DNA from: Pteria penguin
Lineage: Eukaryota; Mollusca; Bivalvia; Pterioida; Pteriidae
Reading direction: 5' to 3'
Length of the DNA stretch: 64,000 nt
Assembly: GCA_035048485.1 (NCBI GenBank)
Contig: CM068581.1
Location: 61,228,893 to 61,292,892, forward strand
Both the position numbers and the translations under genes were made by a program. The notes under the pieces are model-generated. The model was not told the DNA's origin. It saw only the letters and a list, made by a program, of their open reading frames with translations, and did not search any database. The stretch's first letter is position 1; the number at the start of each line of letters is the position of its first letter. Of this stretch, positions 13,998 through 64,000 are shown one piece after another.

Positions 13998-16900
13998 ATG
14001 GAGACAGCAGCAGGAGTACTTCTGAAGCTATCAGATTGTTTCCTGTCAAAGTTATCAGACATTAGTACCATTCTGGACCTTAGTCAAGCAAGTGACCCGG
14101 AGAAGGATTCGTATCTACAAGTTATCGAGCAGTGTATGGAAGAAACAGCTGGTCTGGCGCATATTGTAAGACTTCTAAAACTAGAGGTGGATAAACAGAA
14201 AAATGATCTAGAGAGATTCAAGGTTAGAATTCTATCACTGAATACTGAAAAAAGATTGTTTTTGTTGTAGTAGCAATTTACAAAACTGTTTATAGATAGA
14301 TTAATACTTATGAAATAGAATAAAGTGTGACTTTAGGGGACTGAATCATCAAATAATTCAGAGGGCTGTAACAAAACTAATCGGAATTTTCACCTCTGAC
14401 TAGCTGTAATGGTTTCTTCAAGGGCACTTGCCTTTGATTAAGTATAATATATTATGTACAGTTCTGCATTCTCCAGTTTTCTCTACTTCAGAATACTGGC
14501 TGCTATCATATTGTTCAATTATTCTTAAGTGTGGCTAAAAGTGATTCAATTACCGTATGTACATTATTTATAAGAAATTTTCTGTTTTAAAAAGTTCATT
14601 GGATGATATAATTCTCCAAAGTTTACATACATGTAGGTCAACAATAGTCTATTAGTCAACAATAATGAAAAACAAATCATTGTGCTGTTTAGGACATCAA
14701 AGAGAAATTCATAGAAAGGAAAGCCATCATAGAATTTTGTAGTCAGAGTATTCCAGATCATTTACCAAAGCCAAAGCATGAGCATGCAAGGTAGGTAGTA
14801 ATCATAAATAATTTGCTCTGCCACTTCCTTTACATTAAATCTAACACCACACATACAAAGTATCAATAGCATGTCATTAATTACGATTTGTTAGTCTCTT
14901 ACCTGTAAAAATGGAGGGGACTATAGGTCTCCACTCCATCTGTCTATCCATCTGTCTGAGATGGTTTGGTTTTCCAGACTTTTTTTGCAACCATTATTAA
15001 AGTTATTGACTTGAAATTAAAATTGGCATGTAGCTTTATGTCAAAAAGTTACAGATCAAGTTTGAGTTTGGTCATAATTGATAAATTGTTGTAATACATG
15101 TAGTTATGGCAGAAAGTGGTTGGAGACACATACTGATTCTACATTGTACTCACATACTGATTCTACATTGTACTCACATACTGATTCTACATTGTACTCA
15201 CATACTGATTCTACTTTGTACTCACATACTGATTCTACATTGTACTCACATACTGATTCTACATTGTACTCACATACTGATTATACTGATTCTACATTGT
15301 ACTCACATACTGATTCTACATTGTACTTACATACTGATTCTACAATGTACTCACATACTGATTCTACATTGTACTCATGGACTGATTCTACATTGTACTC
15401 ACAGACTGATTCTACATTGTACTCACATACTGATTCTACATTGTACTTACATACTGATTCTACATTGTACTCACATACTGATTCTACATTGTACTCATGG
15501 ACTGATTCTACATTGTACTCATGGACTGATTCTACAATGTACTCAAATACTGATTCTACATTGTACTCACATACTGATTCTACATTGTACTCACATACTG
15601 ATTCTACATTGTACTCACATACTGATTCTACATTGTACTCACATACTGACTCACATACTGACTCACAGACTGATTCTACATTGTACTCATGGACTGATTC
15701 TACATTGTACTTACATACTGATTCTACATTGTACTCACGGACTGATTCTACATTGTACTCACATGCTGATTCTTTTGTATGCTGTATAAGTTATTTAGTT
15801 TCTTTTGATGATCAAATTACCGTTACATTTTTAAATTTGTCAAATGATTTAGGTCCCCATTGATTCAAATACCCTGTAGGACTAGAAATCACTAGAAATC
15901 TGTCTGTTGGTCAAAACTTTGGTTGTGATGTAATAAATCAAAATGTATCTCAGAAAGTTTTCAACCCACAGTTTTCATATTTCACTTACAGATTCAGAGT
16001 GACAGGGCTCGAAATTCGCAGTCGTCCAGTCATCAAAAACAACCTCAAACCTCTTCAGGCAACCTAAAATTTTAGTAATTATAATGGAAATCGTCTGAAT
16101 TTCCTTTAAAATTGCCGATTTGACAACCTAAAATTTTTGTGAATTTCGAGCCCTGGAGTGATGGGAGGAATCATTAACATATTTATAGATTTAAGAGTCA
16201 AAGCTCAAGGTCAAACAGCAGGGCTTTTCATGACTTTCAGTATTCTAGTTTCATCCAGAATTTCTTAAAATTTTGCATCAGTTTCAATTAATAACAGGAT
16301 TGGGTTTTTAAGGGGACTGAAAAATTAACAATGTATCTATACTGAGCTATATTTTGTGGAATGTAAAATAAAACAAACTGTTTAAAAGAGGAGGGTGTAT
16401 GCCAATCTGAACTTGTTAACCATTACAGAAAGGAATAAAGAAAAATCTCTGATAAATACAGCAGCCACTTAAGTCTGATGACAAGCAGCAGAGAAATATG
16501 GTGCTAATTCATGTTCCATCATTCAAGTTTTTATGCCTCTGACAAACCTACAAATACCCATTTGTCAAATGGTATTGAATTGTCTTATAGTTTCTGTGGC
16601 ATAAAGTTCCTGTGCAACTTGCTATTAGAATTTACCATCTGTATTTATATACGGGTACTCCATAATGCATTATTTTTTGATAAATCATGCTGAGGAGTCA
16701 TCACAAATAAATTGTGACCAAAACAGGAATGATGAGTTGAATGCTGTTGTATTATGTGATGTACCACAGACAACTCTTTATAGCAACTCCTTCTTGGGGA
16801 ACAAAATGTACTTCCATAATTCATTTGTTACAAATTTTATCATGACATGTATTGGGGTGGGTTCCCCAAAAACCAAATTTTGAAAAAAAAATTGATCTAG

Positions 16901-25747: not shown

Positions 25748-25919
25748 GGGGCAGGCTTGGTGTAGTAGTTAAGCGCTTGGCTTGTGGCGCCAACGATCCG
25801 GGTTCGATTCCCGGGTTGCGCCACTACGTTTAAGAGGTTGGTTACCTCCTGCTTCCATGTCACGATATAACTGAAAAATTGTTGAAAGCAACGGAAAACA
25901 CCAAATAACCAACCAACCC
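25748..25919 (+). mobile_element. SINE with tRNA-like head (family of 54647-54810)
   Basis: It begins GGGGCAGGCTTGGTGTAGTA (A-box region), has a perfect B-box-like GGTTCGATTCCCGG, then a body shared with the minus-strand copy at 54647-54810 (GAGGTTGGTTACCTCCTGCT, CCATGTC.CGATATAACTG). It ends in a CCAA-type tail (AACCAACCAACCC). The tRNA-like part cannot be a functional tRNA because its ends do not form an acceptor stem. Confidence 0.8.
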
Positions 25920-29664: not shown

Positions 29665-29690
29665 GTATATATATATTTATTTATTCTTTT
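29622..29690. repeat. (AT)n microsatellite and polyadenylation-like site
   Basis: An AT dinucleotide run at 29626-29660 is followed by TATTTATTTATTC, which reads GAATAAATAAATA on the minus strand. That is a plausible polyadenylation signal about 290 bp downstream of the stop codon of the minus-strand gene ending at 29977. Confidence 0.6.
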
Positions 29691-29976: not shown

Positions 29977-32900
29977 TTAGTCTAACTGAGCTGATTTAGA
30001 AGAGAAACAGGATAGCATTTTGCGGAAAGAGTTTCTTTTCTTATTTTGTTTTCTTGATGGAATTTCTTTATTATCAGCTGCCTTCTTAAGATCTTCTTTC
30101 TCTTTAGCATTCTGATCAGAATGATCACATTCTATTTCTGCTTTGGTATCTTCAGGCTCTTCCATTGTTTCTACTGCTGGAGTTGTATTCTCTGGATCCT
30201 TAGAGGGTATTGTCTCATCTTGTGTATTTCGGCAAGTATCCCCATCTATGTGTTTACAAAAATAAAAAAGATTTTACTTAATCCTTTTATTTGTTACTAG
30301 TTTTCACTTAGTTGATAAAGTCTAAACTGAATTGCATGTTCTTCAGTCTGTCTATTTATATATCTGACAATAAATAATCAAACAATAAATATACAATCAT
30401 CTTCTAAGTCATTATCATAAGCCTTAATGAAACATGCTCAGGCAGTAGCTGACGTGACCTTGGTACGAGTCAATAGCATGCTCGGGCAGTAGCCAACGGC
30501 GCCTGGGTACGAATCAGTAGCTGACGGGCCCTGGGTACTAGTTAGTAGCATGCTCGGGGCTGCGTACGAGTCAGTAGCATGCTCGAGCAGTAGCTGACGG
30601 CGCCTGGGTACGAATCAGTGACTGACGGGGGCTGGGTACGAGTCAGTAGCATGCTCGGGCAGTAGCTGGCGGCACCTGGGTACGAATCAGTGGCTGACGG
30701 GGGCTGGGTAAGAGTCAGTAGTATGCTCGGGTGGTAGCTGACGGCGCCTGGTCCGAGTCAGTGGCTGACGGGGGCTGGGTAAGAGTCGGTAGCATGCTCG
30801 GGCAGTAGGTGACGGCGCCTGGTCCGAGTCAGTGGCTGACGGGGGCTGGGTAAGAGTCGGTAGCATGCTCGGGCAGTAGCTGACGGCGCCTGGTCCGAGT
30901 CAGTGGCTGACGGGGGCTGGGTAAGAGTCGGTAGCATGCTCGGGCAGTAGCTGGCTGCGCCTGGTCCGAGTCAGTGGCTGACGTGGGCTGAGTACGAGTC
31001 AGTAGGATGCTCGGACAGTAGGTGACGGCGTCTGGGGACGAGTCAGTAGCATGCTCAGGCAGTAGTTGAGGAGGCGTAGGTACAAGTCAGTGGTATTCTC
31101 GGGCAGTAGCTAACGGCGCCTGGGTACGAGTCAGTGGTTCACGGCGCCTGGGTACGAGTCAGTGGCTGACTGGGGCTTGGTACGAGTCAGTGGTGACTGG
31201 GGCTTGGTACGAGTTAGTAGCATGCTCGGACAGTAGCTGACGGCGCCTTGGTACGAGTCAGTGGCATGTTCGGGCAGTAGCTGACAGCGCCTAAGTACGA
31301 ATCCCACCGACGGTTTTCTTGTGCCCTGTTCTTCAGACGAGACAACAAAACCGTTGCCACGTCACAGACCATACTGGCATATAGACGATTCCTCACTGCT
31401 TCCAGTGCCTCTGTTACATAGGGCTTCATTTCTGTACAACACATCAGATAGAGGCAGTCAACTTATAAATAAATAATCCTGGTGTGATGTAAAACAAGGT
31501 TGAGCAATAATAGAAAACGTATTTCATAAAAAGAACATCATTATATTCTATTTTTACCCAAGTTGCTAGTTTCTGTTTTTTCTTCTTGTGTCTTCTCCTC
31601 TTTTGTTGTACTTTCCTTTGACTTCCCTCTCTGTATTAATTCATAACATCTCACAATTAAAACAATACAATATCAACAATAGAGAAAGAGGAATTATTCC
31701 ATGCCTATCAAGAATTCAGTGTTGTGTATTTTATATATCGGACATCACGGAATATAGAAGTCCGTCCTCCACAGGACGCACAATTTCGTGAGAATGCTTG
31801 TCATGAATTACTTCAAACTTCACGCAGTTGTTGGTTGTAATAGTCTCAAGATCTGTATAATTTTTTGGTTAAGTTTCCATATTTCGTTTTTGAGTTATTG
31901 GACTTTATTCGTCAAATTTTGCCAATTTTTTACATATCGCGTTATAACTGCTGAGCATCTAGTATTGATTGATTGATTGACTGATTGTTGTTTTACGTCA
32001 CGCCGGGAATATTACACCCATATAGCGACGGGAGCATCTAGCAACCTACTTTAACATACAAACATTTTTACTTTGCGGGATGCAAACGTTATAATCAAAT
32101 ATATCGAGTTAAGAAGGCGAATTTTCTCTTATATCGCAGTGTGTATCATAATACATGTGATAAACATAAGCCGGTGTGGCCTAGCGGAAGAGGTGCTTCG
32201 CTTGTGACCGAAAATCCGAAGTTCGACTCCCACCCTGGGCACACCGGTGTTCTGTATTTCGGATGAAACAGTAAAAATCGAGGTCCTGTGTCACGGTAGT
32301 TGTGGCACGTAAAAAATCCCTCACTGCTTCGGATGGGTCCGTTGCAAATGTAAAAATGTCTATGCAATGTATCATGCTGATGCCGTCACCATATACGTGA
32401 AATAATCGCGGAGTGATATAAAACAATAACCAAGCAATCAATGTGCTAACTATAGGTATAAGGTTCTTATCTACACCTAATATTGAACATTATTTTACAC
32501 ACATACTCTGTAATAACTTCTAAACGTTGTACTTACATTAAAAATCCTGTTAAATACTTTCGACACTGAACTAGTTCGTTTCATTTTCCCACTCTTCTGT
32601 TTCTTGCAGCTATTACAATCTTTTTCTTCGGCTGTGGCTACTAAAAAAGTGAATTTTACCGTCATTATAATGTATATGAAATGAGAAAAGCAACAAAACA
32701 ATACATTAAAACAGTGACTGATAAAGGTAATGAATAGCAATAAAGACATAGGTTAACCCACATATAACCCATATATAACCCACCTATAACCCATATATAA
32801 CCCACATATAACAAATATATAACCCATATACCCGGTATATAACCCATATATATAACCCACATATAATCCATATATAAACCATATCTAAGATACTAGACTT

Positions 32901-35900
32901 TTACGTCTTCTATATATCTTATCTTTTCATGAGTCATGATTTAAACGAGGTTGAATAAAAAAAAAAAGGAAAATAGTTTCTTATCTTGTGTACATATAGA
33001 TTCTATAATTATTTCCAATTTAATAATTATAAAAAAGATACATCGAGATAATGTCCATTTGTAATCATATCATGTATGTCAAAAACTATAATCTAAACTT
33101 TTTAAATTTTAGAGGGATGTGCCCGACCTGTTATAATATACGCCATTAACATACACTGGTCAGCTTTTGACTTTGTGACCTTGACTTTGGACTATGACCT
33201 TTTTATCTACACAGGTTGAATATTTTTAACCACAAGAGAGAGTGTTTAATGTTCCACATATAGATTCTTCATACTAGAACTATCAGTTGATACTATGACT
33301 TTATGACCTATAGTGACCCGATGTGCGATTTTAAGTTTCAGATCAAAATTATAAATTTTGATTTTTCACTTCTTAGGAACTCATGCATTAAAGGTTGAAA
33401 ACATCCCTCTTTAGAGAAACATTTTTAAATGCCAGCTAAATGTCTTTCTAAACAAGGAATATCTCTCTTTAGACACAAATCCTTCTACAATTGTCCCCCG
33501 CATTCAGCGAAGCGTGGGGACATTAAATCTCATTCGTCTGTCCGTCCGTCCGTCTGTCTGTCCATCTGTCACACAAACTTTAACCTTAACTTTAACTTTT
33601 TAACCTTAAGACGGAGGGCCTTCATATTTGGCATGTGTGTCTCCAATTGCAATACTTTTCCGTTGGTACCAACATTTTTTATCATGTGACCTTGACCGTG
33701 ACCTTTGACCTACTTCAATGTAATTTTTTAACCGCAAGACGAGGGGCTTTCATATTTGGCTTGTTTGTCCCTTACGGTGCTGCAGATACATGTAGACATG
33801 CACAACCATGACAGTATGTCACAGATCACTGCACCCTTACTGATAGAACCCCCGATAGCAGGGGACAACAATTCTCTGAATTTGCTTGTTATATTTTGTT
33901 AACAAAAGACATTCTAATATAAGATAAACTCAACAAATAATTTGCAAACACTATTCTAATTACATAGGTCTTTATTCTACTAGTTTCTATAGTGAAGTGT
34001 AAATAGTCTTTCTCAGTCTCTGGTATCCAGGGGAAGAATTTCCATTTATCACTATAGAAGTATGTGTGAGGAAGTCTTGCTGCTTTGGCTTCCTGTCCGA
34101 ATGATAATATTTTATTCGTTTTTGACTTACTTTGAACTATGTTACTTTAATGGAAAAATCATTTCATAAATATTTTTGATATATTGATTTTTCACATTTC
34201 TAACTTTGTCTTCACTACTTCTAGATTGGATTTGAGAAAGCTTGGTAGATATTAAGCAAAAGATGTTCTTCATGTACAATTTTATATGTTTTAATAGTTT
34301 GAAAGAAACTAAAGACTTATGGCTATCTACAATCATTGTTCAATATCATTGTGCAATGTTTTCTATTTCTAAGGTGAACAATATAGGCCCATTTGGGAAA
34401 TCTTTTACTTTTGTTTTCATGTATGTTAAGTGAAGATATACATTGTTGTTAGTTTTACTTTTGTTCTCATTTTAAAGTTATGTTTGTGATTGTTTTACAT
34501 ATAAATAAATGTGTTAAAATCATTTGACGAATGTCCTGTTGCACTGATTTGGATGAAACTTAAAAGGAATGAAACACTGTCAACAAATATGGCCACCATA
34601 AATTTTGAAATGCACATGATTTGATTTAAACATCAACTTTACATATGTTCTCAGATGAGAGATGAGACAAAATCGGTTAAGACCCCTTTTGGCCACTCGT
34701 TTTAATATAAAAATATCGGTGTGCCTGGCATATAAATGAGGGACGGACAACACAAGGGGAAGTTGATGAAAGGGATTGGAAATTGGCGGCAAGGGAACGC
34801 AAATGACACTATTCCGAACAAGAATTTGAAACAAAAATCTCTCAGAAAGTAGATGACAGAGCCCTTGTCCCCTGTCTGCCCCTCAAAATGGACATGCAAA
34901 TATATTTTTTAAAAAGCAACAATTCTAATAAGTTTTGTTTAAAATATTGAATAGCACGATTTGTCCATTGCTATAAATTCCGCTGAAATATGAGTTGTAC
35001 AATTTTAAAAACTGCTACACATTATAGTATAGGGAGCAATCTGGCGCGCGAACTGAGCCAGAAAAAATCAGCATGTTTTCTATAGAACATTCAGCTTTAT
35101 ATTTGCATGATCTGGTATATTATGTACAGGGTAGTAGCCAGAATATTTATTTTAATTTCAGTCAAAGCCAGATTATTTATTTCCAGTATTTTCAGGGTCT
35201 GAAGAAGATTTATTTCCAAAAAGTGCCAGCCCCCGCCCCCGAATCAAATGGTCATCCCCTTTTAGATACATTTCGTCAATAAGGAACACCAAATGCCCCG
35301 ACATATATATGTAACATATGCAAGTGAATGCGATTTCACGCGACACGAATTCCTCCGATTCACGCTTACTCAATGAGGACAGTTAATATACAGTGCCAGG
35401 TCACGACTTTGTTATACTTGTGCTACATAGACGGCGATATCTGTAAAAGTTTACGTTAACTGAAGACGTATCCTTTTTCTCTTCCTTGAAAATCAGTCAC
35501 CGTCATAAGACAAAGCGCGGTAACCTTACCTTCTGGTGTGATTTCCAGTGCAGCGTTAGGGTTATCTTTCTTGATTTCTGCATAATTTTCCAACAAGCCC
35601 GTATGATCTTCCTGAATCTGGGCACTAGCGTCTTTGATAATAGTAATGATATACTCCTCTACCGTCTGTATGCTGCCGTCTGGCAAACGTATCATAACTG
35701 ACCCCATTCCTGAAGAACAGACACATAGAATGTACCCTATCCACGGAACGATATACTACAATATATTGATTACCTTTCAATTGATACTACGTACAGGTCA
35801 CATATGTTTAATATGGAAGTCGATGCGAGTTGAATCATACATAACAATGTCAGAATAACACAAAAACTGTTGTCTGAGTAAGAATCGCTGGGTAACAAAA

Positions 35901-36743
35901 GTTAATATCCCAACCTCAGAAAACTGCACGTCTGTAACATATATACCTACCGGTGGAATATTAAAAGCAAACCTTTGGCGTCCTGCGTCTACAGTGACGT
36001 AGCTAAGCTTTTTGTAGTGTTCATACCACAAACCAAATGCAGACTAACTGCAGCGATTTGAATCAAATCTGTACGATATTGAAGTACATATCGATAAAGA
36101 AAAAGGCTTGCTTGTGCAATCGGGTATACATAGGTTACACGAAAGTTTAAATCAATTATTATTGTTAAACTTAATTATAACAATAATAAAGTTTAAAAAT
36201 CATACATGATTTAAACTTTAGTGTAACACATGGTAGCTACGCCACAGAATCTATAGTATGTTTTTATTAAATCAGTTAAGTGAGGTGGTCAGTGAGTCCA
36301 ATATTCCTAAAGTCCGAATCAATAGTCGGATCATCAGTACCTTCGACAAAACACGCATCACTCCGTACGATCGATCCAGCCTTAGTCGACAAATCACTTA
36401 TGCAGCGCAAAGCTTGACTTCCCGTGGACCACTTGAGTACATTTATTGAAAATTTCTTACCAGCAGAATCCGTAGATGGCGCACTAGGAATGCAGTTACC
36501 GCTTGGAGTTTCTTCTCTGGATTGTGGATCTACTGGTGTGCCATCTTTCGATGTTGACTCCTGAATAGTAACATCTTGAGTAATTGTTTCAGTTTGTAAC
36601 ATCATGACGTTATCCGTGCTATATCCGTTTATGCTCTGTATTACTGCAGTCTGCTCTCTCTCTATGATTTTGCGGGCCGTCTCTATGATAAGTGTCGCAT
36701 ACTCTGTGATGGTTATCGTCTTGCCATTGAGTGTAATCGACAT
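29977..36743 (-). CDS. unrecognised protein with two related N-terminal modules (5 coding exons)
   Basis: Minus-strand coding exons are 36461-36743, 35530-35709, 32537-32637, 31558-31630 and 29977-30245. Every junction is GT-AG and the phases (1, 1, 0, 1) all join in frame, giving 301 residues and one stop. Residues 1-45 and about 96-140 align with each other: an I-x-L-x-G-x-x-I...T-x-E-Y...I-I core followed by a helix ending in an E-x-x-T motif. Each module has its own exon. Between them is a Ser/Thr/Pro-rich spacer (50-94). Residues 156-301 are charged and low in complexity, with a CNSC pair (about 162-165) and two short basic stretches, KRTSSVSKVFNRIF and KKRNSFRKMLSCF. There is no signal peptide or membrane segment. 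I do not recognise the family. The tail suggests a phosphorylated or calmodulin-like-binding peptide, but that is a guess. Confidence 0.72.
30430..31310. repeat. ~70-bp GC-rich minisatellite in an intron
   Basis: About 12 units of 70-72 bp, each built from TAGCATGCTCGGGCAGTAGC, TGACGGCGCCTGGGTACGAG and TCAGTGGCTGACGGGGGCTG. It lies in the last intron of the unrecognised gene and is far more GC-rich than its surroundings. It runs directly into a SINE relic at about 31300, and the GGTACGAATCCC at that junction looks like a B box. The array may have grown from the SINE head. Confidence 0.9.
31300..31445 (+). mobile_element. SINE relic (central domain) in an intron
   Basis: GTACGAATCCCACC is followed by TGCCCTGTTCTTCAGACGAG, AAAACCGTTGCCACGTCACA and CCTCACTGCTTCCAGTGCC. 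These match in order the SINE at 57843-58119 (GGTCATGCCGGTGT, GGACGAGACAG, AAAACCGAGG, CCTCACTGCTTCGGGTG). It lies in the last intron of the gene above. Confidence 0.7.
31960..32040 (-). mobile_element. SINE 3'-tail fragment
   Basis: A TTGATTGATTGATTGACTGA run followed by TTGTTTTACGTCACGCCGGG is the reverse complement of the 3' end of the SINE at 57843-58119 (GTGACGTAAAACAAAAATCA plus ATCA repeats). The 5' part is missing. Confidence 0.6.
32168..32440 (+). mobile_element. full-length tRNA-headed SINE (old copy)
   Basis: The tRNA-like head GCCGGTGTGGCCTAGCGGAA has an A box and a B box (AGTTCGACTCC). It closes on itself through GGGCACACCGGTGT, so an acceptor-like stem is still visible. The central domain (CAGTAAAAATCGAGGTCCTG, CCTCACTGCTTCGGATGGGT) and the 3' end CAATAACCAAGCAATCA follow. 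Flanks ATGTGATAAACATA and ATGTGCTAACTATA match at 11 of 14 positions, a decayed target-site duplication. It lies in the third intron of the unrecognised gene. Confidence 0.82.
32755..32885. repeat. ~10-bp AT-rich minisatellite
   Basis: Imperfect tandem copies of ATAACCCATAT / ATAACCCACAT over about 130 bp, intronic in the unrecognised gene. The open frames across it are repeat artefacts. Confidence 0.85.
33115..33890 (+). mobile_element. pearl/Helentron-like element(s)
   Basis: A degraded core unit at about 33160-33330 (TTTGTGACCTTGACTTTGGA) precedes a better-preserved element. The latter has a hairpin TGTCCCC (33492-33498) / GGGGACA (33516-33522), a TCCGTCCGTCTGTCTGTC run at 33540-33566, and two core units carrying TGACCTTGACC and CATATTTGGC. 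A terminal CCCCGATAGCAGGGGACA hairpin lies near 33850. TGACCTTTGACCT at 33699-33711 is a perfect DR1 arrangement. It is intronic in the unrecognised gene. Confidence 0.6.
33891..35520. other. intron sequence with unnamed interspersed repeats
   Basis: The part at about 35040-35260 (AGCCAGATTATTTATTTCCA, AAGTGCCAGCCCCCGCCCCC) reads like a dispersed repeat. The rest is unassigned. Several short open frames on both strands have no recognisable content. Confidence 0.35.
36134..36227. repeat. nested palindrome / foldback
   Basis: The outer arms GTTACACGAAAGTTTAAATCA and TGATTTAAACTTTAGTGTAAC pair almost perfectly. Inside, TTATTATTGTTA and TAACAATAATAA form a second stem. The whole ~94 bp could fold into a long hairpin. 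It lies in the first coding intron of the unrecognised gene. Confidence 0.85.
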
Positions 36744-36894
36744 CGTGTCTTAAGGAAATCAACATGTACAACAGCACTTCAGTATATATGTATATATTTT
36801 ATATATATTTACATACACAAAACAAATATTAAAAGACCAATTTCAACAAACCTGGGAAACAAATTGTAGTAATTCTTCAAAACATAAAATGCGT

Positions 36895-42970: not shown

Positions 42971-43760
<790 letters not shown>

Positions 43761-63101: not shown

Positions 63102-63767
63102 TGCATTACCTACGTCATTATGCCGTCTGAAAAAAATTGACCTATGATATCATGTATACAGAATTTCATGAATATTTCGCCCCCATTTGTACTATTATCT
63201 AGTGACTTCCACTTTAGGTTTTTGGGACTTTAAACCTTGAACCAAAAGTCATTCCAGAACGCCTAAACATTCTAACAATACCCGGATTTTTTGTTTTTCA
63301 ACATAAATTCTAAAAACGATATTCTTGAGGTTATTCCGAAAGGCATTGCCACATTTTGAAATCTGTAGCGTCTACGTGAATTTGCATTGCAAGGATGTGT
63401 GTACAGTTTTGCTGTTTGTTTGATTTGCAGGTCGCATGGAGGTAGAAGGCAACCAATGTATTGGTAATGAATCACTGAACAAATATGGCAACCTTTCCAA
63501 TATCCTCTAATGCTATACGTTGTTTTAGATTCTTTTAAAATTATTTATCCATTTTCCTGCTCACAGAAAAACAATGAAAAGTATCTTATTGATTTCATTT
63601 ATGTACCAAATGTCATTATATTGAAAGTTACCGGTAATCAATTCTACAAGATGGGTGCTGTATAATAGACAATGGTGTAAGTAGGTTAAATTGCTAAATG
63701 ACAATTTTAAATATGAAGGTCGTATTTTCATCATTTCACTCATTTAAAGTTACATAAAGTTTTTAAC
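63102..63767. other. intergenic stretch upstream of the right-edge gene
   Basis: No feature recognised. It should hold the promoter and 5' UTR of the gene at 63768, but I see no convincing TATA or initiator. Confidence 0.35.
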
Positions 63768-64000
63768 ATGAAGGTCGCACTTTTGTTATTGTTGGTCATT
63801 TTGGACAGAAATGTATCTTCGTTGATTTCAAATTATGCCGTTCAATGGAACACTGCGGACTACAATGACCATTTGATGACGAAGTGGGTATTCTCAACAT
63901 TGTACGGAACAAGTCTGATTGAATGTGCGGTTGTATGCATTGGTAATGAGAGTTGCTCTGCCTTTTATTACTCTTCATTGACCACAACCTGTCATACCTA
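63768..64000 (+). CDS. secreted PAN/apple-like protein, N-terminal part (runs off the window)
   Basis: An ATG at 63768 opens a frame of 77 codons that is still open at the window edge. Residues 1-17 (Met-Lys, then a run of Val/Ala/Leu/Ile) form a typical signal peptide. The mature part continues with a Trp/Tyr-containing segment, then ECAVVCIGNESCSAFYY and TTTCHT. The spacing C-x3-C-x5-C-x-A-F-x-Y...C is that of PAN/apple domains, extracellular protein- or sugar-binding modules common in mollusc secreted proteins. What follows the domain, such as a lectin or fibrinogen-like module, cannot be seen. An overlapping minus-strand frame is a shadow. Confident that it is a gene; the domain call is moderate. 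Confidence 0.7.
   Translation, partial: MKVALLLLLVILDRNVSSLISNYAVQWNTADYNDHLMTKWVFSTLYGTSLIECAVVCIGNESCSAFYYSSLTTTCHT

Follow-up and report, generated by a model that had tools for sequence, protein, structure and literature searches.

The locus and its gene

We describe a gene in a 64,000-nucleotide (nt) stretch of the genome of the bivalve Pteria penguin (assembly GCA_035048485.1, contig CM068581.1, positions 61,228,893 to 61,292,892 of the forward strand), hereafter the window, whose own numbering is used throughout. On its minus strand, between positions 36743 and 29977, lie five exons that splice into one open frame. The gene has its structure intact in the DNA, a coding bias, two similar modules encoded by exons 1 and 2, and no second copy found in the Pteria genome. 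We read it as one more case of an orphan gene, here with an exon that was probably duplicated internally. The features are as follows.

36461..36743, minus strand: exon 1, 283 nt; start codon, module 1 and a Ser/Thr-rich linker; 94 residues plus 1 nt
36609..36743, minus strand: module 1 (residues 1-45); predicted beta-hairpin 2-5/8-11, helix 12-50
36276..36460, minus strand: possible alternative 3′ end; exon 1 frame open through the donor, 61 codons to the stop
35530..35709, minus strand: exon 2, 180 nt; module 2; symmetric, phase 1-1
35564..35707, minus strand: module 2; predicted hairpin 5-7/13-15, helix 16-48 (numbering of the exon 2 model)
32537..32640, minus strand: exon 3, 104 nt; Cys- and Lys-rich, net charge +6, with the basic stretch KRTSSVSKVFNRIFN
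31558..31630, minus strand: exon 4 (doubtful), 73 nt; Lys/Glu/Thr-rich
29977..30245, minus strand: exon 5, 269 nt including the stop; acidic, Lys-rich tail with the C-terminal end KKRNSFRKMLSCFSSKSAQLD

The first-pass annotation had proposed five minus-strand exons with compatible phases, from 36743 to 29977, and this was borne out. All four introns are GT-AG, with phases 1, 1, 0, and 1, and no internal stop interrupts a product of 302 residues plus the stop. The acceptor of exon 3 consists of two adjacent TAGs, and use of the second (32637, which our gene finder chose) would equally well give 301 residues, the length stated earlier. Exon 2 is flanked by excellent splice sites, its acceptor ranking in the top 0.4% among AGs and its donor in the top 0.6% among GTs; the exon 1 donor equals the top 1.1% of the strand's GTs, and exon 3 has a donor in the top 2.3% and an acceptor in the top 15%. 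AATAAA occurs beyond exon 5 at 29685 and 29681. An upstream coding exon was considered and rejected: the possible acceptor at 36748, 5 nt ahead of the ATG, is weak (score -1.12, with 23% of AGs equal or better), and the gene finder joined no such exon at exon costs of 10, 12, or 16. Exon 1 would be symmetric (1-1) only with this weak acceptor in use.

Two of the introns carry repeats. Intron 4 holds a minisatellite at 30433-31300 (71-base unit, 7.4 copies at 30515-31047, 28- and 44-base sub-units), which a DNA search of the animal's own genome matched at this place only. The intron between exons 2 and 3 holds a probable fold-back element at 33111-33410, with 24-base inverted arms (75%) spaced 252 apart; dozens of genomic sites match its end at 33320-33400, and many of these have an opposite-strand match about 230 bases away.

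Evidence that the exons are coding

Coding potential was scored with a codon model trained on the longest open reading frame (ORF) at each of 30 kinase loci in this genome (11,018 codons, from kinase matches on contigs C1 to C14), some of which possibly include intron ends. The claimed frame is the top-scoring one in all five exons, for a sum of 57.6 bits. Exon 5 scores highest, at +20.3 bits versus -27.4 and -93.0 in the remaining frames, followed by exon 1 (+15.9 versus -55.6 and -42.1) and exon 2 (+14.8 versus -23.7 and -23.5); exon 4 scores +5.4 in frame and exon 3 +1.2, the best among its three frames. When the 208 ORFs of at least 60 codons in the window are ranked by score, those containing exons 1, 5, and 2 come first, fourth, and eighth, amid the exons of a neighboring CFAP53-like gene and a transposase piece. 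The ORF with exon 2 scores 11.9 bits, a value that only 1 of the 25,907 ORFs of 60 codons or more in 60 simulated sequences attained.

The gene finder, with approximate splice matrices and with flanking sequence that includes 2,500 N, returned 36743-36461, 35709-35530, 32637-32537, and 30198-29977; that is, it recovered exons 1 and 2, exon 3 from its alternative acceptor, and most of exon 5. The score was 29.7 at an exon cost of 10 and 23.7 at a cost of 12, and at the latter setting the controls reached at most 3.2 (120 simulated strands of 164 kb) and 10.6 (two reversed strands). An initial setting was dropped because it produced chains of 37 and 39 exons on the two strands and also chained the reversed sequence (score 142.5). 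Codon bias, phases, and the gene finder's score versus simulations all speak for a protein-coding gene. We regard exons 1 and 2 as secure, exons 3 and 5 as probable, and exon 4 as doubtful, and we consider it very probable that the gene is real in some form.

A probably duplicated module

That exons 1 and 2 each encode one copy of a related small module, as claimed at first pass, held up in an ungapped alignment over 40 residues with 28% identity and 50% positives (pairwise BLASTP E 6e-4), in shuffles, and in the matching predicted hairpin-helix. Shuffled versions scored as high against exon 2 in 2 of 5000 trials for the whole of exon 1 and in 1 of 5000 for its first 45 residues. AlphaFold gave exon 2 a mean predicted local distance difference test score of 83.9, and for exon 1 block means of 91, 94, 93, and 81 over residues 1-40, with means of only 45-51 past that point; both models rest on a two-sequence alignment made up of just the two modules. 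Both modules are nonpolar at ten of the helix positions (shuffle p 0.0018), which lie clustered on one face (p 0.0015). A shared nonpolar face is to be expected if the helices pack against something, most simply each other.

In each case at most a few codons separate the exon start from the module, and exons 1 and 2 both end in phase 1, so that the two related exons are adjacent and compatible in phase, as in tandem exon duplication. Hence, from their sequences and predicted folds, the modules are most likely related by duplication of this sort. The suggestion of exon duplication made in the first-pass annotation is thus supported in part, by the related sequence, the same predicted order of hairpin and helix, and the shared phase, but no relative was found that would date the event.

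The search for relatives

Against the protein database, the whole protein drew 730 candidates and no match at E <= 10, and residues 1-154 drew 128 candidates and no match, in a search that needs exact shared 5-residue words, so that relatives below about 45% identity (an estimate) can escape it. A control with SKA1, which is encoded in the same window (plus strand, 14.0-21.3 kb, four open pieces chained manually; Pfam E 2.9e-47), returned 35 proteins at E <= 0.001 from the same database: 18 named molluscan, 1 from the brachiopod Lingula, 7 from other named animals, and 9 without a name. Mollusc proteins, including those of Pinctada, are therefore present in the database searched. The nearest annotated relative of the control, from Pinctada imbricata, is only 73% identical over the 136 residues of the conserved part, and therefore a protein evolving faster than SKA1 could drop below detection.

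In the animal's own genome (838 Mb, 49 contigs), the one bivalve genome that the DNA searches covered, the whole protein gave 22 candidates and 5 matches, all 5 of them the gene itself, and each module alone gave 1 match, to itself. Searches of Pfam, the PDB, and fold libraries gave no match above noise, so that, as far as these libraries go, the earlier remark that no family with this layout was recognized holds. A microbial or viral origin was rejected, with no relative in the viral contigs or prokaryote genomes scanned: when the module alignment was used, no relative was encoded by any of the 139 pattern matches in the former or the 212 in the latter. The best reading is that the gene is fast-evolving or lineage-restricted. 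"Orphan" here means not found in the collections searched, and other bivalves may well have an orthologue that has diverged or lacks annotation.

Tail and possible short form

The tail had been credited with two similar short basic peptides, and this did not survive comparison. Shuffles of exon 3 aligned as well with exon 5 in 4033 of 5000 trials, and with its last 30 residues in 2580 of 5000, and the best alignment of exons 3 and 5 leaves the two named basic peptides unpaired. Since the tail peptides are no more alike than shuffles, the earlier remark reflects composition only. The basic peptide of exon 3 is amphipathic (moment 0.576, shuffle p 0.011). Exons 4 and 5, both Lys- and Glu-rich, resemble each other at a level matched by 64 of 5000 shuffles, and from this we draw no conclusion.

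A functional likeness, at most, may be seen to the basic effector peptides of the MARCKS type, with which the protein shares a charged, flexible tail where Lys and Arg stand beside Ser and Phe. N-myristoylation of MARCKS needs a Met-Gly N terminus, whereas the present protein starts Met-Ser.

At the other end of the gene, the frame of exon 1 continues through its donor to a stop at 36276. This read-through scores +4.9 bits, versus -15.7 and -74.7 in the remaining frames, belongs to no Pfam family, and is followed 8 nt past the stop codon by an AATAAA at 36268. The motif is frequent (15 in the 7.9 kb scanned), and its nearness to the stop is therefore weak evidence. As read from the sequence, there is a hint of a short isoform ending at 36276.

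Interpretation and rival explanations

Taken whole, our reading is a tentative one, which we hold to be possible: a genuine bivalve gene, single-copy as found, whose doubled hairpin-helix module would form a self-associating adaptor that ends in a charged, flexible tail. Tandem duplication of a module exon would have left two copies, one per exon, in the N-terminal half of the protein. Each is predicted to be a beta-hairpin that runs directly into one long amphipathic helix, and these helices would most likely pack together, within or between chains, with the result that the protein would self-associate. Both the Ser/Thr-rich linker and the charged tail are probably flexible, and the basic tail segments could serve as binding sites for acidic membranes or for a calmodulin-like partner, with phosphorylation tuning the interaction. 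A bolder version, in which the gene would found a new pterioid bivalve family, with an undescribed module doubled via a symmetric exon, a self-assembling scaffold, and a membrane- or calmodulin-binding tail, strikes us as improbable.

Several observations weigh against the self-associating adaptor or against the exon chain. Modules 1 and 2 were modelled separately, one model per exon, and the nonpolar face might have another protein, not itself, as its packing partner. In amphipathicity the basic peptide of exon 5 does not stand out from shuffles (p 0.25). The acceptors of exons 3, 4, and 5 are matched or beaten by 15%, 33%, and 34% of the strand's AGs; exon 4, whose donor is likewise weak (top 16%), is omitted by the gene finder. 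At a cost of 16 the gene finder keeps exons 1 and 2 only and joins them to a piece of the minisatellite instead of to exons 3-5. At a cost of 10 the reversed sequence reaches 16.9 (29.7 for the gene), and at a cost of 8 the real strand merges into a 54-exon chain while the reversed sequence scores 26.4. The weak acceptors and the behavior at cost 16 count in favor of a mis-joined 3′ half, with exons 1 and 2, perhaps with the read-through end at 36276, making a short protein, and exons 3-5 belonging to another transcript or being joined differently. The 61-codon read-through, with its positive score and its AATAAA 8 nt beyond the stop, also favors this. But no exon has a higher coding score than exon 5, the gene finder takes exons 3 and 5 in phase with exon 2 at costs of 10 and 12, and an acceptor predicted for the neighboring TPH-domain gene (5.9-11.5 kb, minus strand; PF13868, E 3.8e-19), which we take to be CFAP53, scores -2.12, about as weak as two of the acceptors here (-2.24 and -2.43), the comparison sites being boundaries predicted by the same gene finder. 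We judge a mis-joined 3′ half rather unlikely. A more radical notion, which we hold to be very improbable, is that the locus is non-functional, either a gene in decay or a row of open frames strung together by chance. No homologue was found, exon 4 and several splice sites are weak, and the reversed real sequence has 5 of 450 ORFs at or above 11.9 bits, the best at 19.1. Since reversed sequence yields comparable ORFs, no single ORF is decisive; the set of ORFs is. Standing against a non-functional locus are the frame kept intact across five pieces, with the claimed frame best in every one, the strong sites flanking exon 2, the related modules in separate exons, and the simulations.

It is also conceivable, if unlikely, that the protein is a diverged member of a known family, such as one with a remnant ubiquitin-like (beta-grasp) domain. 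Module 1 matches the ThiS-like ubiquitin profile PF14453 at E 0.01 and 16.3 bits, and a profile of the two modules matches a redesigned ubiquitin at E 0.13. The likeness is that of an N-terminal hairpin of resembling sequence, then a helix. However, the first score is below the Pfam cut-off of 26 bits, the matches are confined to the hairpin, and the best hits of Foldseek against the PDB have E-values of 3.0 and 6.4. Beta-grasp domains have strands after the helix; both of our models, from the two-sequence alignment, consist of a hairpin and one long helix of 33-39 residues with no further strand. The weak ThiS-like and ubiquitin matches reflect the predicted hairpin. In the Pteria genome, PF14453 itself found 3 matches at E near 7 and none above the cut-off, and a literature search on ThiS-like proteins and PF14453 yielded nothing useful. 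An EF-hand, a helix-loop-helix with a 12-residue acidic loop, was prompted by the DG...EEY stretch of module 2 and was rejected: there is none among the Pfam matches to E 10, and the models have no helix before the loop.

Returning to the reading of a genuine orphan gene with a doubled module, it shares with lineage-specific animal genes its spliced structure, the lack of a second copy as found, and the lack of detectable relatives; it differs in its internally duplicated module, which is predicted to fold with good confidence. According to one study (PMC7660931), many lineage-specific genes are explicable by homology detection failure, which may apply to this gene as well. Lineages generally have many such genes, according to the same study, and for this reason the gene alone alters no established picture. 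If it is transcribed, it would neatly illustrate how exon duplication can double a small foldable module in a gene of no recognizable ancestry, and relatives from other bivalves would let a newborn origin be told apart from a fast-diverging one.

The neighborhood

Other features of the window and its flanks are noted for completeness. A Mariner-like transposase piece lies at 43276-43575 on the minus strand (PF01359, E 4.2e-5, 23.8 bits versus a cut-off of 24). ARAGORN calls a tRNA-His at 25759-25824 on the plus strand, and Rfam at its gathering threshold lists nothing in the window, so that the call may reflect a repeat derived from a tRNA. Upstream on the same strand as the gene, at about 85.5-95.9 kb in window numbering, is a predicted ankyrin-repeat gene (L021/L022; Ank_5 E 8.9e-8), which the loosest gene finder setting chained to the gene described here; we take this to be an artefact. 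The top plus-strand prediction (L017-L018), at about -13.3 to -3.8 kb in window numbering, scores 53.8-74.2 bits at costs of 10, 12, and 16; at costs of 10 and 12 it encodes 576 residues with a GDGSPGILGIG repeat, and it matches no Pfam family to E 1. At 63717-63998 on the plus strand is the start of an apparent secreted PAN-domain protein (PF00024, E 6e-4, just below the cut-off), truncated at the window end. Lastly, between the pieces of SKA1, a tandem array open in several frames (HTDSTLYS and similar) occupies 15078-15863 on the plus strand and is probably intronic.

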